The notes beneath the pieces are model-generated. The model was not told the DNA's origin. It worked only from the letters and a program-made list of their open reading frames with translations, and did not search any database. A program made the translations under genes and the position numbers. A DNA stretch of 64,000 nt from Sesamum alatum (taxonomy: Eukaryota; Streptophyta; Magnoliopsida; Lamiales; Pedaliaceae), in assembly GCA_034509735.1 (NCBI GenBank), contig JACGWO010000010.1:9499193-9563192 (forward strand). Direction: 5' to 3'. Below are positions 3,221-32,905 of the stretch, piece after piece. Numbering within the stretch: position 1 is the stretch's first letter; each line of letters begins with the position of its first letter.

Positions 3221-4283
3221 CTCCCTACAGTACGACACCTAGTTACCAGTAACTAATCTTCCATTTTCTTAATCTCAACTCATTCCATAACGTAATATAG
3301 ATTATGTTTTACCAATATAACAAATATATATATATATACGACATTAGATCATAAACATAGCCAAAACCTTATATTTACTTCCCACCACTGTACATAACTT
3401 AAGAAAAAGATAACCAACGTCCAACTGTCCAAAGTCTTACAACAAGCTCTACAATACTAGGAATATTTTAATTACATAGCCCAAAAACTTCCACCTCTGA
3501 TGTCGCGGCTGACCCACCTATTCAGTGTCACGACACGGCTCAAGATCCAATGGTATTAATCTGTCGACCTATCTCCTGAAACGTGTGTGTGGCAAGGAAT
3601 GAGCTGCCTACTCCATAAGTATAGCCTTTCGGTCTATATATATAAGTATATGAGCAACCAGTCAAGTATAAAGTAATTATACCAACACAACCAACATGCG
3701 ACATATATTACAGCAGATAAGAAATCACATAGCTACCATAAGATATTAATTCACGACATAATAAAGGCATTGTAGTTGTTTCCTTAGGGTCCCGCTTATC
3801 CAACCTGGAGTGCATCACTCAATGAGCTTAGCTGGCTATCACCATCATCATCATCTCAATCACAATACTCCTTCCACTCTCTTTTCTTTTCTGATGCACA
3901 CAGCACACAGCTCGTGTGTATCCCATCATCTCCATTGATCAATGACAGCACACAGCTCGTCATTGATCATATCATTGTAAGCCATTGAGTATGCTCCCCA
4001 GTTAGTTAAGCCATCGTTTCATTTTAATCATTCACTCGTCAATACCATTCCTATTTGATTCCATATCACAATCAATTATACAACCCGCAATCATTCAGCC
4101 AACATCCATGCAGCACAATCACACTTTAGCACATAATAGCAATTCCACATATATAACGATCATCTTAATCACAATCGACATCCATGATCAAGTATATAAA
4201 CAATCCATATTTATATCCAATATCTCAATATATATATCCAGCATTCAACATAAATACTCACATAAACAATTCATACTCATATC

Positions 4284-4314
<31 letters not shown>

Positions 4315-5260
4315 CCAAAAATAAATAGACTTCTCACATAAGCATATATATAATATATATATATATATATATCCAACAATTTATATTTATATTCACATAA
4401 ATATATATAAACCAATTAGCTATACTTACCTCAAATTTCAAAATGGTCTGTCAACACAAAAAGGTGCTCAACCCTCCACTCTATCGTCACGTCCTATAAT
4501 AAATTATAATTTATACGATCAATACCTCATAAATATCGTAAATTCTAATTAAGATATTATATAATATTCGCGTAGTTCTATTTATATAGAAATTCACCCC
4601 CCCCCCCCCCCCCCCCGTTCCATTTTATTTTATATAACTTAACTTTCTACACTCTTAGGTATACTTTTAATTTATCAACTAACTCATACAATTCCATTTT
4701 ATAAAACCCTCATACCATTACAACTATATTAATAATATTTCTAACTTAAATTATTATAAAAATCTTATATTTTCTTAAATAACTTTTCAATAATATTTCT
4801 ATTAATTCCTATCAATTCCTCGCTATTATATAATATGATTAAAACCTATATATATAATTAAGTATTTAGTCAATACACTCGGTAAAATTGAACACATTAA
4901 CTACAATAGTAATTAAATCTAGCAAATCTAGTAATTTAGTTACCCAATTATAGCAATTTTATATCAAATGTGATATTTAATATAACACTGGTTTAACTAG
5001 TCAAACTCATAAAATTTTCCGATTAAATAGTAAATCGGTCAATATAAACTATATTTAGTAAATGAACTAATTACATAGTATAATTATATAAATTAATAAA
5101 AATTTAAAATGTAAAAATAATTTCATACCTTTCGTCTTCCCCGAGAGAGAGAAAAATGAGGGAGAAATGTGTATGTGTGAGATTTAAATGTGTGAGTGTT
5201 GCTTTGTGTTGAAGATACATATATATATATATATATATTTATTAAACAAACTTGAAATGG
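3221..5260. other. Gene-free AT-rich spacer, possible old LTR
   Basis: No coding region is visible. The left edge, read on the minus strand, ends with a GGGAGTGTTACA-like sequence that could be the end of an old Gypsy-type LTR, but no partner or primer-binding site was found. The stretch holds several (TA)n runs (3324-3340, 4290-4313, 4342-4372, 5217-5237), a 20-base poly-C run at 4597-4616, and a local inverted repeat around 3935-3972 ('ttgatcaatga' and 'tcattgatca'). Confidence 0.5.
4597..4616. repeat. Poly-C homopolymer (C20)
   Basis: Twenty consecutive C bases in an AT-rich setting. The true length is uncertain because such tracts are prone to sequencing error. Confidence 0.85.
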
Positions 5261-5264
5261 TGGG

Positions 5265-7663
5265 GTAAGTTTCTTTTTTTTTTGGTTTACCTAAATTAAC
5301 CATATAATAATATTATTTTTAAAGATAATTATAAAAACAATTTACTTTTAATCCATACTACTTATTTTTTACATTTATTATTTACTCTCTTTAACTACTT
5401 TTCACATTATTCATATTTACTCATATTAATTACTTTTCACATTGTACTTATTGACTCATATTAATATTTTTTATATTATATTCATAATATAAGAACCTAC
5501 TAGATAAAAATACTCTTACGAAATTATAAAAGGAACTACAAAATATAATTATGATTCTACATTGTATAATTTATTGAGTACAACAATAATTAAGTTGAAT
5601 ATAATTTTTTTCTAAATTAATAACTTAGGTGTTATTCCCATTATAAACAATTCATATATAAAAAACCAGGTTTGTAGTTTCAAAGTTTTGAATAATTTAT
5701 TTATATTTCATGTATAATTGATTTATAGTACTTAATTTTTCAAATTAAAATTTTAAGTATTGTAAAAGAATTGGAGATACAGAATTATTAATTAAAAGAA
5801 TACAATGACTGTTAATAAAATTAAAGAATTGTCAAAATGAAAAAAAAACTATAAAACATCACTTAAAAAAGTAGTTTACAAAAATCTTCAAAAGGTAAAT
5901 ACTCAATATTGGTGTATACACTTAATGCTCCAAAAAATTGGGATCGGAAAAGAATAAATCACAAGCAAAAAAAATTAATTAAAGATATAAATTCAATTTT
6001 ACTTGCATTATTCAGAAACAAAAAATATTACAAATTATTTAATTATGGAGGAATAAATATTTTTTCTATGATTCATTAGTTTTATTATTTCAACAATTCA
6101 TTTAAAATTCTGATATACAAAGTTATTTATGTTATATATATTGTTGAAATAAAAATAGATCGAGAAGAATGAAAATACTAAAACATCAAACTCTATCTAA
6201 AGACATATCCATTTATATTATATTTCAAAACTTTTGAATGATCAATTTGGTAAAAAATGCATTTATATATCTTACAAAAATTCTTGTTAAGATATGATGT
6301 ACGTAGTTAACTTTGTATAATTTATTGTTCTATTGAAAAATTATTTATATACTCGAACTCAATTCAAAACAAGTTTGGTTGAGCAATGAATTACTAGGTG
6401 CAAGTTAAATAAAATTATATATTTTTAATATTTTAAATAAAGATTTATTAAAAAAAGTATTCATAATTTTCTACATGATATGTACTTGGATATGCAAAAT
6501 ATATGGTGAATTTTTTCAATCAATTTCATGATTTAGACTTTACAATAATTTAAAGTTAATTAGACTAATTCTTATCGCATCATTACTATTATGTTGATTT
6601 GTAAGTCAAAATCGAAAAACTTCTTTTATGTATATAATCCTTACTAGTATTATCTTTTGATGGTAAATTATGTCAATTATCAACGTATTTTTTCTAAATC
6701 AAAGCGAGTTTAATAAAAGGTAAAATATGCATACACAACTTTCCATAAAAATTGATCTCGTGACCTTACTATCATGAATAATTAATATAAGGGTAAATTA
6801 TATTGACACCCCATAAGATTAGACCCAATTACACATACACTCACTGTCTTTTGCAAAATTATAGCTACACCCCCCTAAGGGTTGTTAGTGTAATTTTTTT
6901 CAAGGGGTATTAGTGTAAGATTTGTCTTTAAATAGGGGGTGTAGTTGTAATACAATTACAACCTCCGGGGGTATAGCTGTACTTTCGCAAAAGCCAGGGG
7001 TGTTTGTGTAATTGGGCCTAAACTCAGGGGGTACCACTGTAATTTATCCTTAATATTATTATACCTGAGTTAATTGAACATGAATGTCAGCTCCTTCTCT
7101 TACACTATGTACATTGCTCAATTTGAATAAATATCTTAAACTGATAGGATACTTAATTTATTGTTTTTTTTTTCTAGACAAAATCAAAAGAAATGTACAT
7201 ATTATATAAAAAGCTTTTGAAATGACCTTTTTTAAAGGGTTTTAAGAAGGAATAGAGCTTAATATTAAAAGCACAAAAAAATTTAGAATATTATATAAAT
7301 ACGGAAGTTTGTGAATGCAAGATCTTAGATAAATATAAGAGTTAAGAGAAGTTTTAAAAAAATCTATATATAAGTGAAGAAGCTTTTATAGTATTTAAAG
7401 ATATTTTCAAAAGAGATTTTGAAAGCTTCTCACCACACCACTAAAATTAATCTTGACCGTCCATTTGAATAGCCAAATGTATAAATATTGGATGGAAATT
7501 CATTTTTAATAATCAAGTTTGGATTCAATATTTTCATCCAAATTTTCCTATTAAAATCTTTTACATATTTACACATTATCTAAGAGAAGAGAAAGAAAAA
7601 AACAAATTAATATTGAAAAACATAAAACAATGCATCACGCGCAACGCGCGTTTATTTTACTAG
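5265..7663 (+). mobile_element. Helitron-like element, copy A (5' end missing)
   Basis: A non-autonomous Helitron-like element with no coding capacity. The 3' end has the two hallmarks of the class: a short hairpin (CGCGC-AAC-GCGCG at 7638-7650) and a terminal CTAG at 7660-7663 followed by a target T. The whole stretch is closely similar to copy B at about 28390-30766. Copy B has the expected TC start and copy A does not, so copy A looks 5'-truncated or rearranged near 5265. It carries a foldback element at 6789-7051 that is also present in copy B, so that insertion predates the duplication. Confidence 0.68.
6789..7051. mobile_element. Foldback MITE inside Helitron copy A
   Basis: A 263-bp element whose ends are inverted repeats (AAGGGTAAATTA at the left, TAATTTATCCTT at the right). 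The arms are built from complementary blocks of the 'acccaattacac' and 'gtgtaattgggcc' kind. It has no coding capacity. An orthologous copy sits at 29901-30162. Confidence 0.78.
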
Positions 7664-9296: not shown

Positions 9297-9420
9297 GGGG
9301 TCCATTTGACCTATTGCGTGAACTTCTCTCGCCTGGTGTTTTTCGACCTCGCATACATTGACGCTTCCCTGGTCGCCGATCCTTAAGGTACTCTACGACC
9401 GCCCTTTTTTACTTATTAAC

Positions 9421-11921
9421 ATGTCTTCCCGTACTACTTCATCTGAGTCGAGGTCGAGGTCGGGTTCGAGGGATAGCTCTGGCTCTGAATCCGATTCTCG
9501 GTCTGGTTCGGGTTCAAGGTCTTCCTCTTCGGGCTCGACTGCGACCTCTCCTCATTCAAAGGAGGTGGTCAATGAAGCTACTTCCCCCTCGCATACTCCT
9601 AACCCGGTCGCCCATATCGAGGCTGGTCCGTCGCATATTTCTTCTTCTCCTTCTCGAGCCGCGACCTCGAACATTCCTTTAAATAACCGAAACCCTAACG
9701 TAAATACTTCTCCAAACAATAATGTGGTCCCATCCCTCGACCGTGTAGATTCTGATGAGGTGCCTACACTTGCGGGTTATATGGCTATGATGGCCGCTAA
9801 TCCTTGGGCTGGCATAATAAGTTCAGTAAAACAACTCATTCACAAAATTAAGGAAAAATATTTTATACCCCATGATTATGAGGTCTTAGTCCCTCGGTCC
9901 TTTGATCGCATGCATCTTCCTCCTCAGGGTTTCTGCCCTTTCTCACTTGTTCATTTGGATGCCGGTCTTCGTTTCCCTTTAGCACCACCCATAGCCAACA
10001 TTCTCACCCATTTAGATATATGCCCTATGCAATTATCTCCTAACACCATAAGTATCATAATCATTTTTGTCATCATGATGCGTTATCATAATTTCGAGCC
10101 CAGTTTCGACAATTTGTGGTCGCTCTATTCTTTCTCCGTTTCTGCTCGATCCAGCGAGCGGGGCTTTTATTACCTCTCCGCTCGACCTGAATGTAAATAC
10201 TTAGATAAACTCCGATCGAACGTAGGGCCCTGGAAGGAGCGTTTTATTTTCATTCGACCACCTCCAGGTCAAACTTGGCCTTTTCGATGTGACTGGCGCC
10301 TTACTAAACCCGAACCCGAGCCTCAAGACGGGGGGTTGGAGGGTGACCAGATAAATGCTATCACCGACGAGACTTATGACTCCAAAAAACTTCTATCAGA
10401 GGAGGTCTTGAAGGTAGCTGGCCTCTCTCCAGCACCCCTGCGAGTGCAAGGCTCCTTAGGTGATTTTAAGAATTTTTCACTAACTTTTATCATTTCTTTT
10501 GTCGCACTTCCTTTTTATATTCATGATCCATACAACTTTTCTTTTCAAAGGAAGCAGTGATGAATGCTCGTCTTGCCGAAATTGCTCGCAACCTGCGAAG
10601 AAGGGGATCCCCGGCGGTCGCGGTCGCTCTTCAGGCGGTCGTCGATGTTGCCTCCCCTGAAGTGCATCTTCCAAGAGAACAATCCGAACGTTTACCTGAC
10701 ACGGCAGAGGCCGAGGTCGAGGTCGGCGCACGCGTGGAACCGTCAGCGATTGTCCCACGGGTGCCCGTCGTGCCATCGAGATCGCTTCGAGTGGTTCCCA
10801 AGAAGCGAGTGGGGATAGAGCCAGCGTCGAGGGCGAACCCAGTAAATCGAAGAAGCGGAAACGCAAGGATAGACGCAAGGGCAAAGAGAAGAGTTCCAGC
10901 AAATCAAGCAAGCGCTCGAGCAAACGAGCTGAGAGGCGCGCGGCCAAGGATGCGGCCGAAGAAGAAGAAAACACCAGGCAATTTCAGGAACAGGTCGCTT
11001 GGTGGAAACAAGCTCGAGAGGACTTTAAGACTTCGAGCAGTCGGGTCGCTGAGATGGACGGAGAAAAAATGAACCCAGATTAGGCCATCTCAGCTCGTAG
11101 CTCTGTGCTGCGTACTCTCGTTGGCCAGGATTCCTTCGAGCTATACAAGGCATGCTGCCTCGATCACGACCAGATTTTGTTGGCCCAAACTGCCCACACG
11201 CGGGTCGAGGAGCATCTCGCTCATGTGCTGATGCAGGCAATTTTCAGCTTTTCATGTTCGCTTATACTTTCCCGAATACTTTCTTATTTCTTCGATCATT
11301 GCAGGCTTCAGCCTTTGGCCATAACCTGGCCCTCAAGTGTTCGATGTTCCGGAATGACAAAGCAGATGCGGAGAAGAAGATCCGCGAACTCGAACAAAGC
11401 CTTGAGAGTGCCAAGGCTGCTGAAAAGGAGGCTCTGGAAGCCAAGACTGTTGCGGATGCCCAGGTCGTTGCGCTGGGGAGCCAGCTTTCTGCGACCATCG
11501 AGGAGGGCAGGCAACAGGTGGTTGCTGCCTTAGAGCAGGGGCGAACGGATGGTTTTTCAGCCGGTCGCCTCGCCGGGAAGACCGAGGGTTTCATCGAGGG
11601 TCGAGAGACCTTTCTTTCAATCAGACGAGTACAAAACAGTCCCTTGCCAATGTTCGTCTTCAAGGTGCACGGGATTTTCTCAAGTCTCCTGTCTTCAAGA
11701 CTGCGGTCGATGTTCATTCTGCCCAATTCCTTAATGATGGGTTTGACAAATGCATCGCGCAGGTCGTGCACCTTAAGGGCTTTGCCGAGGGATTCGACCA
11801 GTCCCGTCTCGACTCCTCTTTGGATGGTCAGCTTCAGCCCTATCCTCCGGAGACTGCTTCCGATCCCAGCAAAGAGGATGAGTTCGCCAGCTTGATCGAG
11901 GAAATAGGCTATGTTCCCTAG
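9421..11921 (+). pseudogene. Antisense gene (aORF) of the Tat element, Transposase_28-like domain, degenerate
   Basis: A spliced gene of unknown function on the strand opposite gag-pol. Exon 1 (9421-10459) begins MSSRTTSSESRSRSG, then has a long Ser/Arg-rich acidic tract (about residues 5-110). A folded domain follows with 'LDAGLRFPLAP', 'HLDICPMQLSPN' and 'FEPSFDNLWSLY', resembling the Pfam family called putative gypsy-type transposon (Transposase_28). An intron with GT...AG ends is likely at 10460-10550. Exon 2 (from 10551) changes frame, has TGA stops and a TAG after 'GEKMNPD', and holds a Lys-rich basic stretch and a coiled coil. A second intron (about 11233-11304, GC-AG type) leads to a coiled-coil exon ending 'EEIGYVP' at 11921, with one frameshift near 11620. 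The start at 9421 is preferred because the protein-like Ser/Arg tract begins there; 9358 is in frame upstream. Extra antisense ORFs here are known for Tat elements; their role is not established. Confidence 0.72.
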
Positions 11922-13554: not shown

Positions 13555-14925
13555 CTATTGGTCGAACGGACATGCGATCTTAATTGGTTCCATCGAGGTC
13601 GCGGGGGTATGTATCAGTGTTGCATACTTCTGACAGCTCTCACACCTTTTGGCGAATTCCATTGCGTCATTTACTAATGTGGGCCAAAAATAGCCTTGCC
13701 TTGCGACCTTCTGCGCTAGCGACCTACCCCCTGAATGATTACCACAACTTCCCTCGTGAATCTCTCTCAAGACATAATGAGCCTTTTCTGGGTCGAGGCA
13801 TTTTAATAGCGGACCTTCGACCGTTCTTTTGTACAGTTCATCCCCCACTATCGTGAACCTGTTTGCTTTGAACCTCAATTTTTTCGCTTCGACAGGATCA
13901 TTGGGTACGACCCCCTCAAGTAGGTACCTGATCATACCTGTCTTCCATGATACCTCCTCCTCGATCGCTTGCACTTCCATGGTTGGTTCATCAACCTCTG
14001 GTACTTCCTTGACCATTACTGAAATACTGCGATCCTTTATGCCTGCCATCATAGCCCCGAACTTAGACAGAGCATCTGCTCGTGCGTTTTCTTCTCTTGG
14101 GATTTGTTGAATCGAGCACTTGTCAAATTTCTGCATCATTTCCTTCACCTCTCTAAGGTACTGGGTCATTGACCATTCTCTCATTTCATATGCTCCTTCG
14201 ATCTGCATCGCGACCAGTTGAGAGTCGGTGCATACATCTAACCTTTTGACCCCAGCTTGACTTGCCATTTTTAGGCCCAGAATTAGTGCCTCGTATTCTG
14301 CCTCGTTATTAGTGGTGGGGAACGCCAGTTTTGCCGCGATCTCAATTTCTACCCCTCCGGGTCCCTGTAACAAAATTCCTGCACCTCCATTATTCGCATT
14401 TGACGATCCATCGACATGGAGCAACCAGCCTTCCTGAGGCTTTACTTCCTGGTCACCTGCGAGCTCGACAATGAAATCAGCAAAAACTTGAGATTTAATG
14501 GAAATTCTTGCCTGATATTCAATATCGAATTCTCCTAGCTCGACCGCCCACTTGATCAAGCGACCTGAAGCATCCGGTCTGGACATGATTTGTTTCAAGG
14601 GGTAGTTTGTCAATACTACGATCTTGTGAGATTGAAAGTATGGTCTCAACTTTCGAGCTGTAGTAACCAAAGCCAGTGCTAACTTTTCGATCTGGATGTA
14701 TCTTTTCTCTGCCCCTTGAAGCATTCTGCTCACATAATATACTGGATTTTGCGACCCCGCTTCTTCCTTTACCAGAACAGAACTTACTGCATCATCGGAC
14801 ACCGTTAGGTATAAGTATAACACCTCACCTATCTTAGGATTTGCAAGCAGGGGTGGTTCTGTCAAATACTGTTTTAGATCAGTCAATGCTTGTTCGCACT
14901 CTTCGTTCCACTTGAAATCTTTCAC
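13555..14925 (-). pseudogene. RNase H, second (archaeal-type) RNase H and integrase zinc finger, one 456-codon open frame
   Basis: An open part of the Tat polyprotein. Residues 1-150 form the RT connection and the original RNase H ('LYLYLTVSDDAVSSVLVKEE', 'YIQIEKLALALV'); the expected 'LTDQPL' Asp reads 'LTNYPL', so this domain is probably inactive. Residues 165-300 form a second RNase H with 'LHVDGSSNANNGGAG', 'TNNEAEYEALILGL', 'CTDSQLVAMQ' and 'ENARADALSKF', supplying the D-E-D-D set. Dual RNase H is a known Tat-lineage trait. Residues 380-440 hold the HHCC zinc finger of integrase (H in 'REIHEG', H in 'GNHSGG', then 'CESCQKY'). Stops close it at both ends. Confidence 0.9.
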
Positions 14926-15012
14926 CTTCCTCAGAGTTTTGAAAAATGGTAAGTTACGGTCCGCTGATCGCGAGATGAAGCGACTAAGAGACGCGATCTT
15001 CCCGGCTAGTTT

Positions 15013-15790
15013 CTATACATCTTTGACCGTTTTTGGCGAACTCAAACCCAATATCGCCTCTATTTTTTCTGGATTTGCTTCAATCCCTTTCTCGCTCACC
15101 ATGTATCCTAAAAATTTTCCGCCTCGAACTCCGAATGTGCATTTTGATGGGTTTAATTTCATGCCATATGTTCGCATCACTTCAAACGCCTTTCTCAGGT
15201 GATCGAGGTGATGTTTCTCCTCTTTGCTCTTGACCAACATATCGTCCACGTAGACTTCCATAGACTGGCCGATCAACTCCTTGAACATCCTGTTCACCAA
15301 CCTCTGGTAAGTGGCACCTGCATTTTTTAACCCAAAAGGCATTACATTATAACAATAAATGCCATTTTCAGTAATGAATGATGTCTTATCTCTATCTTCC
15401 TCCGCCATGAAGATCTGATGATATCCCTGGTATGCGTCCATCATGCTGAACAGTGCGCATCCTGCGGTCAAATCGACCAGTAAGTCTATTCGAGGTAGCA
15501 GGTACGGGTCCTTTGGACATGCCTTGTTCAAGTCTGTAAAATCTGTACACATTCGCCATTTGCCGGATGCCTTGGGCACTATCACCACGTTTGATAACCA
15601 TTCTGTGTACTGGACCTCCGCTACGTATCCGCCTCCAGAAGCTTATTGACCTCTTCCTCAATGATTTTGTTCCTTTCCACGCCGAACGATCGTTTCTTTT
15701 GCTTTACTGTCGCATCTGCGGGTCTACATTGAGCCTATGTACGATGACCTCTGGATCTATCCCCTTAAAGTCCGACGGGCTCCATGCGAA
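15013..15790 (-). pseudogene. Reverse transcriptase (Gypsy)
   Basis: The polymerase domain that copies element RNA into DNA. Visible motifs in order: 'VVIVPKASGKWRMCTDF', 'LNKACPKDPYLLPRID', 'MPFGLKNAGATYQRLVN', the catalytic 'YVDDMLVKS', and 'LGYMVSEKGIEANPEKI'. The catalytic YVDD is intact. The N-terminal 70 or so residues (15590-15790) are recognisable ('GIDPEVIVHRLNVDP', 'EEEVNKLL') but split by at least two frameshifts near 15630 and 15720. A TAG stop at 15010-15012 replaces the usual Gln before 'KLAGKIASLSRF'. Confidence 0.9.
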
Positions 15791-18795: not shown

Positions 18796-19894
18796 GCTTC
18801 TCTCCTTCGGAAAACGGGTACAAACTACTACCTTAATTTCATATTTAATTTGTATAATTATATTGATTACTGAGTTTATTAAATATAATTTTGACTTTCC
18901 TTTAATGTCCAATAAGAAAATTTAATTGGTTTGACCATTTATAAATTAATGATTGATTAAATATTCTATTTAAATTAGGGGTGTTATAGTCCATTAATTC
19001 AATTACTTAATTTATTAGATTTAGTTTTTAGTATAATTGATATATTCAATTTAACTTAAATTATTAACCATATACTTAAGTATATGGGTAGGTATTTAAT
19101 TAATTACTATAATAATGAGGAATTGAGGATAAATTACTAGAAATATAGAAAATTATATTTGAGAAATATTATATCTATTAAAAAAAATTAGTTGCAACAA
19201 AATTTATCTGGGGAGAATAGGGTTTGCTCGATTTTCTAGAGTTATATCAATCCAAATTTGCTGATTCTTGCAATTTGCTGATTCTTGCAATGAAAACTTT
19301 AGAATCTCTAATAAAACTTTGCTATTTAGGTCACAAGCTAAATTCTTTGTTTAAATAGGAAAATTGTAATAAAAAAAAAAAACCTTTTAATCCAGAATAG
19401 GTGAACTAAAAATTATATAACTTGAAATATGAATGATAGATTTGTATGGTTCTTGTTGGAAATTAAACTTAAAAAATAAAAAAAATTTATTTTAAAAATA
19501 TTATGAATTTTCAAAGGGTATATAACTTTTGAAGAATTTTGAAGTTAGTCCCACGAATATGTGGTAATTCAAACCAGGCTGTACTAAAAGATAAATAACT
19601 TGGAGACACAAAAGAATATTTGGGATAAAAATAGTATTTGTATCCGATGTATTTAAGTTTGGGGAGAATTTGTAAGTAGGTACAAAAATTCTGTCAAGAA
19701 AAGCATGTAAAGGAGTATGAGGAGTTATTAATAAAAAAATAATTCCTATAATTTAGACAAATTATACATCATTTCCTAGAATGTGTAGTTATTATACTTG
19801 ATCAATTTTAAAATTGAAGAATTATAGTAAAAGTTAGGATTTAATTAGTGAACATTGCTCATCCTATTAACACTTAAAATCTCTTTTTTATGAA
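18796..19894. other. Gene-free AT-rich spacer
   Basis: No gene or element recognised. It contains one exact 18-bp tandem duplication ('tttgctgattcttgcaat') at about 19256-19291. Confidence 0.7.
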
Positions 19895-20200
19895 ATAAGT
19901 AGTTGGTATTTGTAAACTTATATAAATATTCCTTAATGTTGTATAAATTTATGAGGGCCTAACATAATGTTGGGAGCAAAAACTATTCCAAGGAGTCGCG
20001 TACAGATTAATGTACTTTTATGAAATTCCGACGAAAAAAAGGTCCTGCGAAACAAAAGTTAGCACTCCGATGATTAAGTTAGTAAGTGAATTAAGGTAAA
20101 AATTGTCAAAGATAAAATGATATTGAGTATGTCAAATGTGTAATGTAAAACTTACCTTAAATCTTTAATCAACTTTTATAAATAGGATTTTCATGTTGAA
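19895..20200 (-). mobile_element. Degenerate Tat-type LTR fragment (LTR-like copy 1)
   Basis: On the minus strand it shows the ordered landmarks of the Tat LTR at 18155-18652: a TATAAAAG-type box, GGTAAG, and an 'atcggagtgctaac' block. It is strongly AT-shifted and about 300 bp long. It runs directly into PP2C exon sequence at about 20200. Related copies are at 20715-21050, 21240-21405, 21965-22285, 23450-23670, 24725-25005 and 25330-25575. Confidence 0.55.
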
Positions 20201-20202
20201 AC

Positions 20203-20695
20203 ATTTATATGTCTCATAATTAGAGAAGGCAAGTGTCATATTGTAACTAGCGATGATTCGTAGAACGTGATGACAAACGAAGAATTCTGTGAAATGACTA
20301 ACAGACGAATCTTAGTTTAGCACAAAAGGAACGCAATGATCCCATTGGACCAAAAAATTGACTCTGCTGCACAAATAGCGACCGAGTACCTCCAACCTTG
20401 CCTTTCGAAAATGGAGCAAGGATTATATCAAAGGAAGTTCAAGGTTATAGAAATATTATCCTTCCTCCATCTTCAAAGGGCAAGGCTCGAGAGGTAGTCA
20501 GCCGCAACTTGCGCAATAGGGTCAACTCCTAGGCCCCTATCTGCTAATGGGTCCATTACGTTCGTTCTGTGCTACATTAAGATTCATTTTCTAGCTACCT
20601 CACAAACTTATTCATTTGTCATTACATTCCATAAGTCATCATTAGGCAGAACAAGACACTCGTCTTCTAAAACACGAGGCACAAACATGACTTTG
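20203..20695. pseudogene. PP2C last-exon inverted duplication, copy 1
   Basis: Two pieces of the last exon of a clade-A (HAB1/ABI-like) protein phosphatase 2C gene, tail to tail. The plus arm (about 20203-20425) encodes, with stops, 'VMTNEEFCEMTNRRILV' followed after a stop by 'HKRN'. The minus arm (about 20695-20433) encodes 'VMFVPRVLEDECLVLPNDD', 'LWNVMTNE', 'GLGVDPIAQVAADYLSSLAL' and 'KDNISI'. These match the PP2C C-terminal metal-site region (SDGLWDVM...KDNISI). The centre has a deletion compared with copy 3. In the plus arm the Trp of the SDGLWD motif is a TAG stop. The left LTR-like repeat joins the plus arm directly. Confidence 0.78.
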
Positions 20696-20714
20696 ATTTT
20701 TTTTTTTTTTTGTG

Positions 20715-21050
20715 AGTGATGGTATTTGTAAGATTATATAACACACATATATGCCATAAAGTTCAATAAAATTATGAGGGCCTTCCATAATGCTATAAGA
20801 GAAAATAATATTCCCAAGAGTGCCGTCGTACAAATTAATGGATTTTTATGAATTTTTGATAAAAAAAATTCTGCAAAATAAAAGTTAGCATTCTAATGTT
20901 GAAGTTAGTAAGTGAATTAAGGTTAAAATTGTAAATATTCTAAAAAAAAAAAAAAACTATAAAATAGTAATGAGTATGTTAAATGTGCCATGAAATACTT
21001 ACCTCAAAATCTTTAATTAACTTCCACTAATAAGACTTTCATGTTGAATC
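20715..21050 (-). mobile_element. Degenerate Tat-type LTR fragment (LTR-like copy 2)
   Basis: Same family as 19895-20200, with the 'gagggccttccataatgct', 'gttagcattctaatgttgaag' and 'aatacttacctcaaa' blocks in the same order. No coding sequence. Confidence 0.55.
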
Positions 21051-21239
21051 TAAAAAGACAAATTAAATAAATCTCACGATGTTTCTGTAAACCCAAGTAG
21101 AGTTCTCTTTACAAAATAATAATAATAATAAGAAAAAACAAAACCTTGGTTAGTTTGCAAACCTCAACAGGAGGCTTGTTTGTTTGTTTTTTTGTTTTAA
21201 GTATTATATTTTTTCATTAAAACTTAAAGAAACTTGACA

Positions 21240-21405
21240 ATAATTCCAAAAAACAATTGCTCGAGCCCATTTTAAGTCACTTCCAAATTAATGGGTTTCA
21301 ATAATCTGAAAAAAATACCTGCAAAATAAATACTAGCATTCCGATGCTTAAATTGGTAGATGAATTAGAATAAAAAATTTAAAATGCTGCAAAAGAAATA
21401 CTCAA
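21240..21405 (-). mobile_element. Degenerate Tat-type LTR fragment (LTR-like copy 3)
   Basis: It starts with 'aacaattgctcgagccca' and carries the 'cattccgatgcttaa' block. It is broken off inside its 'aaagaaatactcaaa' block, where PP2C exon sequence begins at about 21406. Confidence 0.55.
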
Positions 21406-21875
21406 AGTGCCATGTTGTGATTAGCAATGACTCGTGGAACGTGGTGACAAACGAAGAATTCTGTGAAATAACGAGCAGACGAATCTTAGTTTCGCACAAA
21501 AGGAACACTACGACTCCATTGGACCAAGAAATTGACTCTGCTGCGCAAGTAACGACCGAGTACCTCTCGAACCTTGCCTTTCGGAGGGAGTTCAAGGTTA
21601 TGGAAATATTGTCATTGCTCCACAAGGCTCGAGAGATAGTCAGCCGCAACTTGCGCAATAAGGTCAACTCCTAGGCCCTTATTTGGTAATGGGTTCATTG
21701 TGTTCTTCATGTACTACATTAAGATGTGTTTTCTAGTCATCTCACAAATTTTTTTCATTTGTCATTACGTCATATAAACCATCACTATCCAGAACAAGGC
21801 TCTCGTCTTCTAAAACACGAGGTACAAACATGACTTTGGGTTCTAGTATGATCCACAACTTTAAGTATCTATCAC
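21406..21875. pseudogene. PP2C last-exon inverted duplication, copy 2
   Basis: The plus arm (about 21406-21580) is open and encodes 'VVTNEEFCEITSRRILVSHK' and 'DSAAQVTTEYLSNLAF', with SNDSW in place of the family SDGLW. Its frame runs on into the centre of the palindrome (open 21384-21674). The minus arm (21875-21598) is the best preserved at its start. A splice acceptor TTTTCAG (ending at 21876) is followed by 'GDRYLKLWIILEPKVMFVPR', then 'LEDESLVLDSDGLYDVMTNE', a close match to the start of the PP2C last exon. Part of the centre, including the KDNIS region, is deleted in the plus arm. Confidence 0.8.
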
Positions 21876-21964
21876 CTGAAAAGTATGAGGGAGAGCAAGA
21901 TAAATTTGAGTTCAAAGCATAACTTAATCAATAATTTTTTGGAGTTTGTAAGATCATTTTTTTT

Positions 21965-22285
21965 TTTTTTTAGCGTGGTGGTATTTATAAGATTATAATA
22001 TGTATATATGTATATATGAATATACCATATTTTTTAATAAAATTATGAGGGCCTTCCATAATGCTAATAACAAAAAATATTCCAAAGTGTATTGTACAAA
22101 TTAATGGATTTCTATGAAATTCTGATTAAAAAAATTCTGCAAAACAAAATTTAGCACTCCAATATTGAAGTCAGTGATTGAATTAAGGTTAAGATTGTAA
22201 AATATTATAAAGAAAAGTACTATAAAATAATAATGAGTATGTTAAATGTGCAATGTAAAACTTAGCTCAAACTCTTTAATTAAAT
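21965..22285 (-). mobile_element. Degenerate Tat-type LTR fragment (LTR-like copy 4)
   Basis: Same block order as copy 2 ('gagggccttccataatgct', 'agcactccaatattgaagtc', 'cttagctcaaa'). It is followed by a GC-rich repeat. Confidence 0.55.
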
Positions 22286-22440
22286 TCTACCCCGTATGGG
22301 GCGGGTTTGAGACATAATTTTTCGGGGCCGGGGTGGGTTTGGGTTATCAAAAACCTGCCCCGACCGGGTCCGGGGCGGGGTACGGGTCCTATCTCCACCC
22401 CGCCCCATTGGACCCGACCCCCGCCTCTTTTTCATTATAT
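22286..22440. repeat. GC-rich inverted low-complexity repeat
   Basis: Permutations of 'ggggcggg' and 'ccccgcccc' around a 'tatcaaaaacctg' centre, forming an imperfect palindrome of about 150 bp in AT-rich DNA. It resembles the GGGGCGGGTTTGGGG-type dispersed repeats seen in plant genomes. No coding potential. Confidence 0.6.
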
Positions 22441-23449
22441 ATTATTAATATATATTATAAATAAACAATTATAGTATTACATCTAAATCCTAAATAATTT
22501 TTGCATGTACCCAACTCTATATAACAAATAAAAAAAATAAAAAATTAGTTGATAAGAAATTTAATAATTATTTTAAATTTTAAATTGAAAACTAATAGTC
22601 TATGTTAAGTTATTTAATCTAAATTGATATTATAAGTAATTAAAAAATAAAATACTAGTTTAATGTATTCTTTGTTTAATATAATTCATTGTCAATCGTA
22701 AAATGATATTACTTGAAGAGAAGATTAATAATTTAGATAAACATATTCTTTGTCTTATACAATTCATTTTAGATATATATATATATTATTATATAATGAG
22801 ATCAAAAATTTAATTAACAATTACAATATTTTAAAATCCAACCACCCGATTCATACCAAATTTTAATATATATAAGTTTGTGTCCATTAGATCATATTAG
22901 ACGGTACGATTTACAATCACGTGTCCCGATTCAACGATACACCGTCTTAAATAATTACTCTTTTGTTCTGAGTACGATATCTCAACATCCGGATACCCAA
23001 TAAGTCTATAACTTTACCAAATGTATTTTTTTGTAAGTTTGATCATATCTAACGATTTGATCTGAATTTTAACGATCCAATTAACCCATGTTGTTCAACA
23101 ATATAAGATGATAATTACATCAATGTAATACTAACATTTATAAATATACAAATTTATTGCATATTGTGAACATATATCAATCTCAACTATAAACACTTTT
23201 ATGTATTTCAATTGCATTATTACAGGAATGGATATTTTCTACAATATTAAATTGTTCAGTATGAATTTTTTTTTAGTATATTTTACTAATAATATTACTA
23301 CTAAACTAATTAGTAGTTTATATTTATAACAATAAATTAAAATATTATATTATATATTTAATATTTTGATAATTAATATAATAATATTTAATTTCTTGTT
23401 TTAACTTAGGCATGAAAGTATATTTTAATATCTTGTGTTTAAGAAATGA
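22441..23449. other. Gene-free AT-rich spacer
   Basis: Nothing recognised beyond short AT-rich repeats. Confidence 0.65.
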
Positions 23450-23760
23450 AAAAGCAATTGCTCGAGCCCATTGAGTCACGTCCAAATTAATGGGGTTCAA
23501 TAATCAGAAATAAATACTTGCAAAATAAATGTTAGCACTCCGATTCTTAAGTTAGTAGATGAATTAGAATAAACAATTTAAAATACTGGTAAAAAAAATA
23601 TACTCAAAATGCTAATATGTAAAAATTACCTCAAATATTTGATTCACTTCTATTTATAGGATTTTCATCAATAGAGTTTTGACTAATCAACGACGTATAA
23701 AATTCTTGGTCGACCATATATTTTCTTTAGTATGGAGAATAATGGTTGTATTTATATTAA
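23450..23760 (-). mobile_element. Degenerate Tat-type LTR fragment (LTR-like copy 5) with adjacent PP2C intron-like sequence
   Basis: It starts with 'gcaattgctcgagcccat', carries the 'gttagcactccgattcttaa' block and ends with 'tttataggattttcatca'. The following 'gagttttgactaatcaac' to 'atggagaataatgg' part also precedes the PP2C copy at 25790 and is probably intron of that gene. Confidence 0.5.
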
Positions 23761-24068
23761 AAATACAATAGATAGCAAGAAGTATAGGTATAATCGTATA
23801 AACTGAAAGGGGTTGTTTTAGTTCATTTTAACACATCTTAACTATTACAAAAGTTACATGAGAAAGACGAAACTTGATATGATAGTAGTTTCCCCTATAC
23901 ACACCTCTAAAATGCTTACTATTCTTTGCACCTCTGTACATATTCTGTCATCTAAGTTTTGCCTTCATTTTATTATTATTGACATTTAGTAATAAACCTT
24001 GTTCTATTATCGCTCGACATTATCAATGGGGTTATGCTGATACTTCTCAAACACTCTCATACTTATGT

Positions 24069-24643
24069 TTGATATTTAAATCCATGAATCATATTAGAAC
24101 CTAAAATTATGTTTATGTCTCAGAGCTAGAGAAGACAAGTGCCATGTTGTGACTAGCAATGGTTCGTGGGACATTATGACAAAGGAAGAATTCTGTAAAA
24201 TAATAAGTAGAAGAATCTTGATTTGGCACAAAAGGAACGCAACGACCCCATAGGGCCAAGGAGTTGACCCCGCTGTGCAAGTGCAGCCGAATACCTCTCA
24301 AAGTTTGCCCTTCAGAAGGCAACAAGGATAATATTTCTATAATCGTAGTGGATCAGAAAGTGCAAAGGAAATTCAAGATTATGGAAATATTATCCTTGTT
24401 CCATTTCTGAAGGGCGAGGCTCGAGAGGTAGTCAACCGCAACTTGCGCAGCATGGTCAACCACTAGGCCCGTATCCGCTAATGGGTTCGTTGCATTCTTT
24501 ACGTGCTACATTACGATTCATTTTCTAGTCACCTCACAAACTTCTTCATTTGTCATTACACCCCAGAAGCCATCACTAACTAAAACAAGACACTTGTCTT
24601 CTAAAACACTAGACACAAACATGAATTCTTAAATATCTATCAC
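24069..24643. pseudogene. PP2C last-exon inverted duplication, copy 3 (most complete centre)
   Basis: The plus arm (about 24069-24344) encodes in pieces 'YLNP', a stop, 'IILEPKIMFMSQS', 'MTKEEFCKIISRRILIWHKR', and after a frameshift 'GNKDNISIIVVDQKVQRKFK', the full C-terminus of a HAB1-type PP2C. The spacer between arms is 32 bp (24345-24376). The minus arm (24643-24377) encodes 'GDRYLR', 'LEDKCLVLVSDG', 'GVMTNEEVCEVTRK', 'VAVDYLSSLALQKWNKDNIS'. Near the centre the arms are almost perfectly complementary ('acaaggataatatttctata' against 24379-24398). A splice-acceptor-like TTTTTAG precedes the minus arm. Confidence 0.82.
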
Positions 24644-24724
24644 CTAAAAAGTATGAGGGAGAACAGGAAAATTTTGAGTTCATAGCACTCATCAATAACT
24701 TTTTCAGTATCTGTAAGATAATTA

Positions 24725-25005
24725 TTTTTGTGAGTGATGGTATTTGTAAAATTATATAAATACATATATGAATATGCCATGGTGTTTTATAAAATCATGA
24801 GTGCTTTCCATGATACTGAGTGCAAAAAGCATTCCAGCTAGTCGCGTACAAATAAATGGATGTTTATGAAATTTCAACAAAAATATAATTTACGAAATAA
24901 AAATTAGCACTTTGATATTTAAATTAAGAAGTGAATTAAAGTAAAATATTGTAAAATATTGTAATCAAATCACTATAAAATGATAATGAGTATGCTAAAA
25001 CATTT
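24725..25005 (-). mobile_element. Degenerate Tat-type LTR fragment (LTR-like copy 6)
   Basis: It has the 'gagtgctttccatgatact', 'attagcactttgatattta' and 'gtgaattaaagt' blocks, following PP2C copy 3 just as copies 2 and 4 follow theirs. Confidence 0.5.
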
Positions 25006-25194
25006 CCTCGCGCCAAACTAATGGGATTCAATAAAATACTCCTACAACTTATTTTAGTGCAATTTAACACATTATCACTGTTGCAAAGTTGCATGATAGA
25101 GAAGAAACACAACATGATACGACCATGAATTGTATAAGACCCGTATCAGACCCGCCCTGTTGTCAGCTCTAGTGTAAACCCAAATAGAGTTCTT

Positions 25195-25196
<2 letters not shown>

Positions 25197-25232
<36 letters not shown>
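25197..25232. repeat. (AAT)n microsatellite
   Basis: About 12 ATA/AAT units. A shorter version at 21115-21130 sits at the equivalent place in the previous array unit. Confidence 0.9.
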
Positions 25233-25329
25233 AAAACAAAACCTTGGGTTTGTTTGCAAAACCCAGCAGAGGCTTGTTTGTTTATTTTTAATATTACATA
25301 TTTTCATAAAAGTTAAAGAACCTTCAAAA

Positions 25330-25575
25330 TAATTCGAGAAAACAATTGGCAAGCCCTTTGTGTCACGTCCAAATTAATGGGCTTCAATAAAATTTCAAAA
25401 GAAGTATCTGCAAAACAAATGTTAGCACTCCGATACTTAAGTCAGTGAATGAATAAAAACAAAAAATTTAAAATACTATTAAAGAAAATACTCAAAATGC
25501 TAATATGTAAAAATTACCTCAAATATTTGATTAACTTCTATTTATAGAATTTTCATCAATAGAGTTTTAATGAAT
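25330..25575 (-). mobile_element. Degenerate Tat-type LTR fragment (LTR-like copy 7)
   Basis: It carries 'gttagcactccgatactta', 'aaattacctcaaatatttga' and 'tatttatagaattttcatca'. On the minus strand this gives a TATAAATA box, GAGGTAA and a TTTGTTTTGCAG acceptor-like site, as in the intact Tat LTR. Confidence 0.58.
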
Positions 25576-25789
25576 CAATATCGTATAAAATTCTTGGTCA
25601 ACACTTATACTTTTTTACTATGGAGAATAATGGTTACTATGGAGAATATCTCTGTACATATTTTGTCATCTAAGTTTTGCCGTCATTTTTATTATTATTG
25701 GCATATAGTAACAATGCTTGTTTTGTTATGGCTCGACATTATCAATGAGGTTATGCTAATACTTCTCGAGCACTCTCATACTTATGATT

Positions 25790-26360
25790 GATATTTAAGT
25801 CGATATATCATATTCGAACCTAAAATTATATTTATGTCTCAGAGCAAGAGAATGCAAGTGCCATGTTGTGACTAGCGATGGCTTGTGGGACGTTATGACA
25901 AACGAAGAATTCTGTGAAATAACTAGCAGACGAATCTTAATTTAACACAAAAGGAATGCAACGACCCCACTGGACCAAGGAGTTGACCCCGTTGTGCAAG
26001 TGCGGCCGAGTACCTCTCGAACTTTGCCCTTCAGAAGGCATCAAGGATATATTTCTATAATGATAGTCGATCAGAAAGTGCAAAGGAAATTCAAGATTAT
26101 ATAAATATTATCCTTGTTGCATTCTGAAAGGCAAGGGTCGAGAGATAGTCAATCGCAACTTGCGCAACAGGGTCAACCCCTAGGCCCGTATCCGCTAATG
26201 GATTCATTGCATTCTTTATGTGCCGTATTAAGATTCATTTTCTAGCTACCTCACAAATTTCTTCATTTGTCATTACATCCCATAAGCCATCACTAATCAG
26301 AACAAGACACTCGTCTTCTAAAACACGGGGCACAAACATGAATTCTTAAATATCTATCAC
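25790..26360. pseudogene. PP2C last-exon inverted duplication, copy 4
   Basis: The plus arm (about 25790-26061) encodes 'YLSRYIIFEPKIIFMSQSKR' and then, after a small frameshift, 'CHVVTSDGLWDVMTNEEFCE', keeping the PP2C metal-binding SDGLWD motif; a TAA follows 'RRILI'. The spacer is about 26062-26093. The minus arm (26360-26094) encodes 'GDRYLR', 'LEDECLVLISDGLWDVMTNE', 'CEVARK', a stop, and 'GLGVDPVAQVAIDYLSTLAL'. About 90-170 bases upstream of the plus arm, intron-like sequence shared with 23690-24060 is present. It lies nearest to the N-terminal PP2C exon at 26935-27277, which is on the same strand as the minus arm. Confidence 0.82.
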
Positions 26361-26934
26361 CTAAGAAGTATGAGGCCGAACAAAACAGGAAAATTTTGAG
26401 TTCATAGCACTCATCAATAATTCTTTTGTTATCTGTTTTTTGGGTGATGGTATTTGTAAAATCATATACATGAGGCAATATTGCTGCTAGTGCTAGATAC
26501 AACAATCTCATACTAATGGCATGGTACTGGAGAGTGCCTAAGGTAAAGATTTAAACGTTAAATGCTGACACCTAAAGTATATATCCTAACAGAGTATTAT
26601 TCAACTTCTCCCAAACAAGAAAAGAAATGGTCTTAAGGGCTTCTGCAATTCAATATCACCTACTTTTTACACCTAAAACTAGTGCAAAATTCAATGAATT
26701 TACAGCAAAATAGCATAAGCAAACAGGGTATGTAGTCCAAGAATACATTCATCCAACTCTATAGATAACGCAACATATATCGAATTTACATAGAATACAG
26801 TTGCTGCAGTTGTAGGTAAAAATTCGTACACGGGTCATTATCCCGTTTGTTTCTATGTCACATACCGGTAACTATTCTCATACACTTGAAGCCAAATGAA
26901 AAATGAAAGTGCTAGTTAAGAGTACAGAACTATA
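26361..26934. other. Spacer between PP2C array and PP2C N-terminal exon
   Basis: About 26361-26470 is intron-like sequence of the minus arm plus the start of an LTR-like repeat. The rest (26470-26934) has no recognised coding exon; the central PP2C exons are not visible here on either strand. Confidence 0.55.
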
Positions 26935-27277
26935 TCAGAACCGGTGATGAGTCGTCAACGGGGTCTTGAGCAACTGAGAGAATTCATCTTCTTCACTTTC
27001 CTGTACATCTGCATCATCATGAACCAATTCACCATTTTCAGTTATATGTTTTGTTTTACTTTCCCCAAGCAATGATGAGGCACGCTCAATCTTGTCAGTG
27101 TTGGCAAGATCATAACCAGCACCCAAACTAGAAGAATTATCATCCAGCATGATTCCTGGATCTGACAGCAAGCTAGCCGAGATTGAGTCGTTTGATCTCC
27201 ATGCTGTTTGCAATTTCAGAATTTTCACATGCAGAATTACCTAATTTAAGTGAAATCGCAACTGCAGGAGGCGACAT
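26935..27277 (-). pseudogene. PP2C (HAB1-like) N-terminal exon, frameshifted and truncated
   Basis: The minus strand begins 'MSPPAVAISLKLGNSACENS' and continues 'EIANSMEIKRLNLG' before a stop near 27180. In the next frame it goes on 'ASLLSDPGIMLDDNSSS', 'TENGELVHDDADVQESEEDE' and ends 'LLKTPLTTHHRF' with TGA at 26935. The MSP-AVA start, the MEI-RL block, LLSDP and the acidic QESEEDE run follow the order of the regulatory N-terminus of clade-A PP2Cs such as HAB1, which inhibit SnRK2 kinases in abscisic acid signalling. The catalytic domain is missing. A single indel near 27183 explains the frame change. The assignment rests on motif order recalled for the family, not on a search. Confidence 0.68.
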
Positions 27278-28190
27278 CTCTTACGCCATTTCTCTTCTTG
27301 ACATCAACATAAACCTGGAAGCTAACAAGTGGTATCCCGCCCAGAAGCAGGGTCAGGAACTACTAAACAAGAGGCGTAGGCGTAATAGGATACACCGGAA
27401 GAATCAGGACAATAATTTACAAGAAACCGGGTTCACCAATAAAAGGCAAACAAGTTAGAATGCAATATGGATAATTGGAATAAGATCTAGCCGTGAAATA
27501 GAGGATCTAACCTTCCACAAATATAAGATTTATGACTTCGACATCTAATTTCAAAATTCTCTTCCTCTAAAGAACTAACCCCAGAATGCCAAACCTCAAT
27601 TCCCACTAACAACCATTGCATCCTCCGGCAGATGGGAAAAAAGGGGCAAAAATCAAATCCTTATCCATAACTCCAACAAGAAAAATCGTAGAAAAGAACC
27701 CAGAAAAAAGGAAAACCAAACCCCTCAAGATTCACAAGAAACCATGAAAACTTTTTGCCATATGGAACAATGCGTTTCATGGATCTAAGGCAACCCTCGT
27801 CAGCCTCTTGGAAATCAAACAAATCCTCCTCAGCCTCTTGAAAATCAAACAAATCCCCAAACCAATCCAAGACTCATTCTTTAAGAACAAATATACGATA
27901 CAACAAAAAAACAGCTAGAATTACACAACAAACTGGAATAATACCATCACATCGAACAACCAAAACTTTCACAGTGAATCAAGAAAAGAAAGAAGTAAAG
28001 GGTATCTTACCAAGAATCGCATTGAAGCGCCATAAACAGGCCAAGAACTGACAAGGGCTGGAAGGATGCTGAGTAATGCGCACCCTCTGCAGATTTTCAC
28101 CCCTTAGTTTCTGGGATTCAGACTTTGAGAGAGAGAGAGAGGACAGAGAGAGATGTGTGTGTGGAAAAAGCTTATCTATATATATATATA
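27278..28190 (-). promoter_or_regulatory. 5' region of the HAB1-like gene: promoter, 5' UTR, probable 5' intron
   Basis: Read on the minus strand, a CT-rich stretch (28165-28120, (GA)n on the plus strand) is followed by sequence typical of a plant 5' UTR. A small potential first exon ATG at 28033-28031 is followed by a consensus splice donor, TTG|GTAAGAT, at 28011-28010. Downstream is a small direct repeat encoding 'FDFQEAEEDLFDFQEADE' in an open frame (27870-27661) whose status is unclear. The interval 27822-28190 is repeated at 31597-31976. Confidence 0.5.
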
Positions 28191-31588: not shown

Positions 31589-31596
31589 CTCCAAAC

Positions 31597-31976
31597 AAAT
31601 CCTCCTCAGCCTCTTGAAAATCAAACAAATCCCCAAACCAATCCAAGACTCATTCTTTAAGAACAAATATACGATACAACAAAAAAACAGCTAGAATTAC
31701 ACAACAAACTGGAACAATACCATCACATCGAACAACCAAAACTTTCACAGTGAATCAAGAAAAGAAAGAATTAAAGGGTCTCTTACCAAGAATCGCATTG
31801 AAGCGCCATAAACATGCCAAGAACTGACAAGGGCTGGAAGTATGCTGAGTAATGCGCACGCTCTGCAGATTTTCACCCCTTAGTTTCTGGGATTCAGACT
31901 TTGAGAGAGAGAGAGAGAGGACAGAGAGAGAGATGCGTGTGTGGAAAAGCTTATCTATATATATATATATATATAT
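31597..31976 (-). repeat. Duplicate of the HAB1-like gene 5' region
   Basis: Near-identical to 27822-28195, including the ATG-donor segment and the (GA)n 5' UTR run. Together with 32967-33190 it shows that a unit of about 3.77 kb starting at 27822 was tandemly duplicated. Confidence 0.85.
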
Positions 31977-32895
31977 AGGGTCGACATCATTTTTGGTCCC
32001 TAAACTATGTCACTTATCCACTTTTGGTCCCTCATGTATCTTAGTCATCAGATTTGGTCCCTCAACTTTAATAATTTCATCAGATTTGGTCCCTCCGTTA
32101 ACTTTTCTGTTAAAACTAACGAACTTTAAGAAAAAAGAAAACAAAAATGAATTTGTGGTCAACAAGGTTCGAACTTGGTTCACATTTTTAACAAAATTGA
32201 CCTATTACCACTGGGCCAAGTCTATGACCTAAAATTTTATTAACCCGATATTTTACTTATTTTATTTCTCTGAAGCAGCCCCAACTTTTATTTTTATTTT
32301 TATTTTTATTTTTAAGTCTCTCAAATTTTTCAAAATGTTTCTAAAGTCCTATATTAGCCCCAAACAACATCGAATACAAAAATCATAAAAATTCAACAAG
32401 ACTAATTCTGAAAAACTCAACAAAAATATACAAGTTATCAAAATACCAAACAATGTCATAAAAGTCATAAACAATACATATGTCATTCATTAAATACATA
32501 AAAATAGTCTGTTTCTGAAATCACCGGCGCAGTAGAGAAAGGGTTTTGAGCCCTTTTGTGATTTGAAGTGGCTGATTTGGGGATATAACACACATAATTT
32601 AGAGGGAAAGTCAATAAGTAATTTGCAGGTTAATAAAAATTTGAATCACGGACTTGGCTCATTGGTAGTAGGTTGGTTTTATTAAAAATGTGACCCAAGT
32701 TTAAACCTTGATGGTCACAAATTCATTTTTTTTTTTTTAATTTTAAAGTCCGTTAATTTTAACAGAAAAGTTAACGGATGGACCAAATCTGATGAAATTA
32801 TTAAAATTGAGGGACCAAATCTGATGAGTAGGATACATGAGGGACCAAAAGGGGATAAGTGGCATAGTTTAGGGACCAAAAATGATATTTACCCT
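31977..32895. mobile_element. Long-TIR foldback element (Mutator-like MITE) with tRNA-like boxes
   Basis: A 919-bp element inserted in a (TA)n run, with terminal inverted repeats of roughly 270 bp beginning AGGGTCGACATCATTTTTGG and ending with the complement of AGGGTAAATATCATTTTTGG. Both arms repeat the 'ggtccctca'/'tgagggacc' block. There is no transposase. Each arm contains a tRNA-like A box and B box (minus strand: 32218-32201 and 32176-32166; plus strand: 32655-32672 and 32699-32710). Confidence 0.75.
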
Positions 32896-32899
32896 ATAT

Positions 32900-32905
32900 A
32901 TATTA

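Follow-up and report, generated by a model that had tools for sequence, protein, structure and literature searches.

The 64,000-nucleotide stretch of Sesamum alatum DNA analyzed here (the window), which lies on chromosome C86, carries four tail-to-tail inverted pairs of one exon (20208-20695, 21405-21876, 24071-24627, and 25785-26344). The pairs were mapped by self-blastn of the window and by alignment with segments of an intact-looking HAB1-like gene at 31.78 Mb on C81 (locus L039, whose coordinates serve as gene positions throughout), and sequence matches identify the repeated exon as the last exon of a HAB1-like PP2C gene. With hand-edited queries, the best matches of both arms were PDB chains of PP2C 16 (HAB1), and tblastn with unedited database proteins agreed, recovering the exon on the plus strand at 25841-26095 (E 7.8e-23) and on the minus strand at 26345-26112 (E 2.7e-30). 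The closest relatives by sequence are HAB1-like, fitting an origin in the clade-A PP2C family. These results uphold what the original prediction had read from the letters of the window, namely that four inverted pairs exist, that both strands encode PP2C C-terminal pieces, and that the source is HAB1-like. The exact limits of the arms have been redrawn for all four units (Table 1). The 32-bp spacer that it assigned to the third copy (24345-24376) turned out to be the final part of the plus-arm exon; in this unit, the plus arm runs to gene position 6569 and the minus arm starts from 6535.

A survey of the whole 527.7 Mb genome placed the array in a wider context. A PP2C family search gave 147 matches, and unit 4, used as a DNA query, had at least 41 matches; apart from C86, the loci considered are on C77, C81, C85, C88, C83, C89, C79, and C80. 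Inverted pairs occur elsewhere on C77 (one, locus L041), on C85 (one, locus L043), and at two sites on C81 (two pairs at 31.787-31.792 Mb and three at 35.297-35.299 Mb), which together with the four in the window makes at least 11. The first C81 units adjoin the intact-looking gene, downstream of which lie antisense pieces of the last exon (L039 6940-7150 and 8861-9145). At the second C81 array (L044 4593-6424), a piece of 3' region adjoins the three inverted last-exon pairs. When flanks are included and gaps omitted, sister copies differ by 3.6% (c2-C85), 5.3% (c3-C81), 8.4% (c1-C81), and 10.5% (c4-C77), and the ends of the alignments vary between loci. One piece on C85 (L043 4417-5833, equivalent to window 21277-22667) nearly equals a stretch that is unmatched in the C81 array (~21292-22497; L040).

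The units of the window most likely descend from one inversion that was amplified as a unit, as opposed to four inversions. By eye, the inversion junction was identical in all eight units inspected (four in the window, two at the first C81 site, and one each on C77 and C85), and a junction held in common with units elsewhere suggests that the window units represent a single inversion copied whole. A tree of 26 arm pieces and eight gene exons led to the same view. Main plus arms and main minus arms, eight of each, formed separate groups of matching shape, each pairing c3 with C81u1, c4 with C77, c2 with C85, and c1 with C81u2. Support was 1.00 for the eight minus arms and 0.62 for the eight plus arms alone, or 0.97 for the plus arms together with the C81 antisense pieces. 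Minus arms from the second C81 site joined C80 and C81 fragments instead (0.90). The eight minus arms were 78-84% identical to the C81 exon versus 72-75% to that of its paralogue on C88; for the eight plus arms, the corresponding values were 72-79% versus 70-75%. The fourfold repetition proposed by the original prediction stands, and its origin is most likely one amplified inversion, given the junction shared in 8 of 8 units and the matching shape of the arm trees. The single inversion may have arisen downstream of the gene that is now intact on C81. Repeated flanks may have promoted unequal exchange, multiplying the unit, and pieces of the cluster would afterwards have been copied to C86 (the window), C77, and C85.

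The putative parent and a relic of such a gene can both be recognized. Exons 1 and 2 of the C81 gene have 88% identity to a Sesamum radiatum protein, which covers just part of exon 4; a Sesamum angustifolium protein reaches the end of exon 4 with 82% identity. For exon 1 of the parental gene, the nearest protein among the best 120 of 626 matches was from S. radiatum (90%). The C88 paralogue shares 89-99% identity, exon by exon, with a protein of S. angustifolium. A minus-strand relic of the same HAB1-like gene as that on C81 follows on the right side of the window array (26566-28153); neither this relic nor the copies on other chromosomes figured in the survey of the locus by the original prediction. 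The relic lacks gene positions 4062-6581, from the middle of exon 1 through the stop codon, and its breakpoint is common to the window and C77 (L041 7194-7196). At both places, the leader, exon 1, and 3' sequence of the gene stand in gene order. Ahead of the relic leader, as judged by eye up to 28600, we did not see the upstream stretch of the intact gene with its two ACGTGG motifs; an AT-rich TATATA repeat takes its place. A retrocopy (processed pseudogene) was considered as the source and is not supported, since intron sequence is retained: the relic still has the intron region of its 5' leader, and the alignment of two of the four window minus arms, those of units 2 and 3, enters the preceding intron by about 60 nt (L039 6185-6244).

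If transcribed, each unit would be expected to fold. For RNA of the minus strand, the minimum free energies of units 1 to 4 were -230.0, -180.4, -263.9, and -298.4 kcal/mol, with z scores of -19.6, -10.3, -13.7, and -18.3, and no shuffle folded as well (100 shuffles each for units 1 and 2, 20 each for units 3 and 4). The plus strand of unit 3 folded at -233.1 kcal/mol (z -12.6). The claim that the arms pair when folded was thereby borne out for all four units. Both observations on which the original prediction had staked the structure, PP2C matches on each strand and pairing of the arms, were checked and made. As hairpin arms the exon copies are nevertheless imperfect: identity between the arms of a unit was 67-77% overall and 67.0-75.6% in the window.

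The eight window arms contain 1924 21-mers. Exact matches to the C81 exon number 14 (W_c1m 5, W_c3p 7, and W_c4m 2), 220 of the 21-mers match it with at most two mismatches, and 1704 have three or more. Exact runs to this exon reach 27 nt in W_c3p, 23 nt in W_c1m and C77_m, and 22 nt in W_c4m. None of the 1924 window-arm 21-mers has an exact match in the C88, C83, C89, or C79 exons; among the arms elsewhere, exact 21-mers to the C83 paralogue were found in C81u2_p (3) and C77_p (1), in runs of 21-23 nt. Judging from these matches, hairpin RNA, if made, could still yield some small interfering RNAs (siRNAs) for the C81 gene. Some silencing of this gene may be possible, since exact 21-mers remain and an antisense exon arm lies about 0.4 kb past its stop codon.

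We found no sign that selection maintains stem pairing and, minus-arm divergence aside, none that it maintains arm sequence, as judged by re-pairing, divergence of sister copies, and stops. Arms of the same unit were no better matched than arms of different units (mean identity of 72.7% versus 72.1%), and their duplex energies were not distinct from those across units. Compensatory pairing was not seen, in that 899 of 5000 random re-pairings equaled the observed total over 180 shared columns. In comparisons of sister copies, the plus arms had 83 differences in 1047 sites, the minus arms 51 in 1022, and the flanks 240 in 3383; plus arms diverge at the flank rate (p 0.40), and the minus arms alone are slower (p 0.02 uncorrected). 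Stops break all three frames in 15 of the 16 arms examined, W_c2p keeping one open frame. No Rfam family reached its gathering score in the window, and transitions at C/G sites of the gene, sorted by context, carried no consistent CG excess of the kind expected from a methylation footprint.

Natural inverted repeats with near-identical arms and tested silencing include Arabidopsis PAI1-PAI4, soybean CHS, and maize Mu killer. The array resembles these in being a natural inverted repeat of gene or transposon sequence and differs from them in that its arms have diverged. Plant MIRNA genes, according to a model reportedly put forward by Allen and colleagues, can be born by inverted duplication. 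This model is discussed in PMC3237417. As in the model, the array has a foldback whose source is an inverted copy of the prospective target and whose arms are similar over their full length, but the window has no Rfam match at gathering scores and no sign of maintained pairing. For poplar, PMC9636151 describes Y-linked partial duplicates of ARR17, of which two are inverted and could form a hairpin, apart from the intact copy; 24-nt siRNA reads are reported there, along with target methylation that is sex-biased. Both loci consist of partial gene copies that are inverted, hairpin-capable, and separate from the intact copy; here, however, the gene is a PP2C gene, the arms have diverged, and the locus is known from DNA sequence alone. 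In design, the array matches known natural silencing loci, poplar ARR17 among them, but maintained pairing is not seen, and we view the array as real, unusual, and probably decayed. A described PP2C inverted array was not found among the papers listed by literature searches (titles and the starts of abstracts), which leaves room for a printed description.

Taken together, our results make it reasonably likely that the window holds a decaying inverted-repeat array of a HAB1-like last exon, which would fold into hairpins if transcribed and which is probably neutral, a relic that no longer has a part in regulation. Because its arm sequences drift much like their surroundings, the array is probably a fossil as opposed to a working silencer; on the best reading, it is at most a weak source of siRNAs. 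If it does act, it would most likely do so through a low level of hairpin RNA, processed into siRNAs that maintain methylation of the array. Yet, several results weigh against a neutral relic descended from the C81 gene. The C81 gene is still matched exactly over stretches of 21-27 nt, and predicted folding is very strong in all four window units (z -10 to -20). With G:U pairs allowed, pairing between the arms of a window unit rises to 82-87% in a minus-strand transcript, duplex energies are stronger for the minus than for the plus strand in 8 of 8 units, and column types that keep G:U pairs outnumber the reverse (75:47, p 0.014). Minus arms diverge more slowly than flanks (5.0% versus 7.1%, p 0.02 uncorrected). 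An siRNA source need not conserve pairing, so drift would be compatible with activity. Finally, the intact genes attach weakly in the arm tree (0.47 and 0.07), and the C81 origin therefore rests on identities and position. The G:U strand bias was considered as a sign of minus-strand transcription and dropped; although the raw counts favor it, the arm-by-type test against the gene was not significant (62:45 against 45:39, p 0.32), for which reason the bias was set aside as evidence. The excess probably reflects base composition together with arms that have diverged unequally.

Other explanations can be set against a neutral relic. The array might be an active hairpin siRNA locus, whose minus-strand transcripts fold, are diced, and silence the C81 HAB1-like gene, and its paralogues less, raising sensitivity to abscisic acid (ABA). 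The strong folds predicted for the window units, the exact C81 matches of 22-27 nt, the matches of C81u2_p and C77_p to C83 over 21-23 nt, and the precedent of poplar, where inverted partial ARR17 copies give siRNAs (PMC9636151), are all in line with such a locus. We nonetheless hold it to be unlikely, as there is no sign of maintained pairing, plus arms drift at the flank rate, the relic leader is without the gene's upstream stretch and its two ACGTGG motifs (by eye, to 28600), and 1704 of the 1924 window-arm 21-mers are at least three mismatches from the C81 exon. By the same token, the suggestion in the original prediction of an siRNA or microRNA locus directed against ABA phosphatases draws weak support, with the 14 exact 21-mers among 1924 in its favor and own-unit pairing, plus-arm drift, the Rfam result, and the relic's upstream sequence opposed to it. 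In a more sweeping version, a dispersed family of hairpin units, at least 11 across four chromosomes and each tracing back to one inverted last exon, would supply siRNAs against an intact ABA co-receptor phosphatase; signaling in drought and seed dormancy would then depend, in this lineage, on how many copies of a pseudogene array are present. We find this version quite doubtful.

Capture of two exon pieces by a Pack-type transposon that then spread them would suit the presence of units on several chromosomes, the repeated flanks, and a short dispersed motif in the flank. However, the 14 inverted pairs of at least 30 nt in 19000-28000 comprise 11 that join exon arms and three that are AT-rich; with every pair so explained, no terminal inverted repeats of this size were seen in the interval. 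In a search that skips very common words, a flank query gave 48 matches, of which the strong ones were confined to unit loci and the others were shorter than 100 nt. Given also the gene-order leader, exon 1, and 3' sequence at the window and C77, we think such a capture improbable. A cis hairpin, in which the extended 3' region of the C81 gene pairs with its own last exon, could be ancestral and perhaps still relevant. An antisense exon piece indeed lies about 0.4 kb past the stop codon (L039 7001-7118), and L039 6245-7150 folds at -310.7 kcal/mol (z -16.1, 20 shuffles) into a predicted structure that, by eye, pairs the last exon with the antisense arm. But none of the 125 21-mers of the antisense piece comes within three mismatches of the gene, and we regard this arrangement as very improbable.

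Even as a neutral relic, the array may be of use. With inverted-repeat copies of differing age and an intact-looking parent in one genome, the point at which a natural hairpin ceases to yield small RNAs could be studied. Should the array still make siRNAs, the copy number of a pseudogene would offer a handle on ABA sensitivity in a likely relative of an oil crop.

Table 1. Features of the array, the neighboring gene relic, and the C81 gene (window coordinates unless L039 is given).
Feature	Position	Strand	Evidence or remark
Unit 1 plus arm, broken HAB1-like last exon	20208..20444	+	Self-blastn, gene-segment map, tree
Unit 1 minus arm, same last exon	20445..20695	-	20445-20691 has 83% identity to C81 gene exon
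Unit 2 plus arm, 3' end region shorter than in other plus arms	21405..21600	+	Self-blastn, segment map, junction inspection
Unit 2 minus arm	21598..21876	-	Gene similarity extends to 21935, into 3' end of preceding intron
AT-rich insertion with G+C-rich left end, between units 2 and 3	22291..23447 (approximate limits)	.	22497-23453 also in C81 array, 95%
Unit 3 plus arm, reaches C-terminal codons of exon	24071..24378	+	Segment map
Unit 3 minus arm	24377..24627	-	Gene similarity extends to 24698, into preceding intron
Unit 4 plus arm	25785..26096	+	Segment map, protein match, tblastn
Unit 4 minus arm	26095..26344	-	Segment map, tblastn
Relic: HAB1-like gene sequence 3' of stop codon	26566..26965	-	76% to L039 6582-6936
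Relic: first part of exon 1	26963..27302	-	79%; cut at gene position 4061, joined to 6582, 3 nt overlap
Relic: 5' leader / first intron region	27318..27988	-	85%
Relic: 5' leader start	27995..28153	-	Homology stops near here, followed by AT-rich repeats
Second copy of relic's 5' leader piece	31592..31948	-	97% to relic
C81 gene exons (L039)	Exon 1 from ~3708; exon 2 from 5003; exon 3 from 5470; exon 4 6245-6580

The second copy of the leader piece (31592-31948) is adjoined by a stretch at ~31975-32900 that, by eye, has inverted ends and resembles a miniature inverted-repeat transposable element. Farther to the left in the window, 13558-15642 (minus strand) and 9322-10557 (plus strand) contain reverse transcriptase, RNase H, and integrase zinc-binding domains along with a Transposase_28 match, and represent pieces of retrotransposons.

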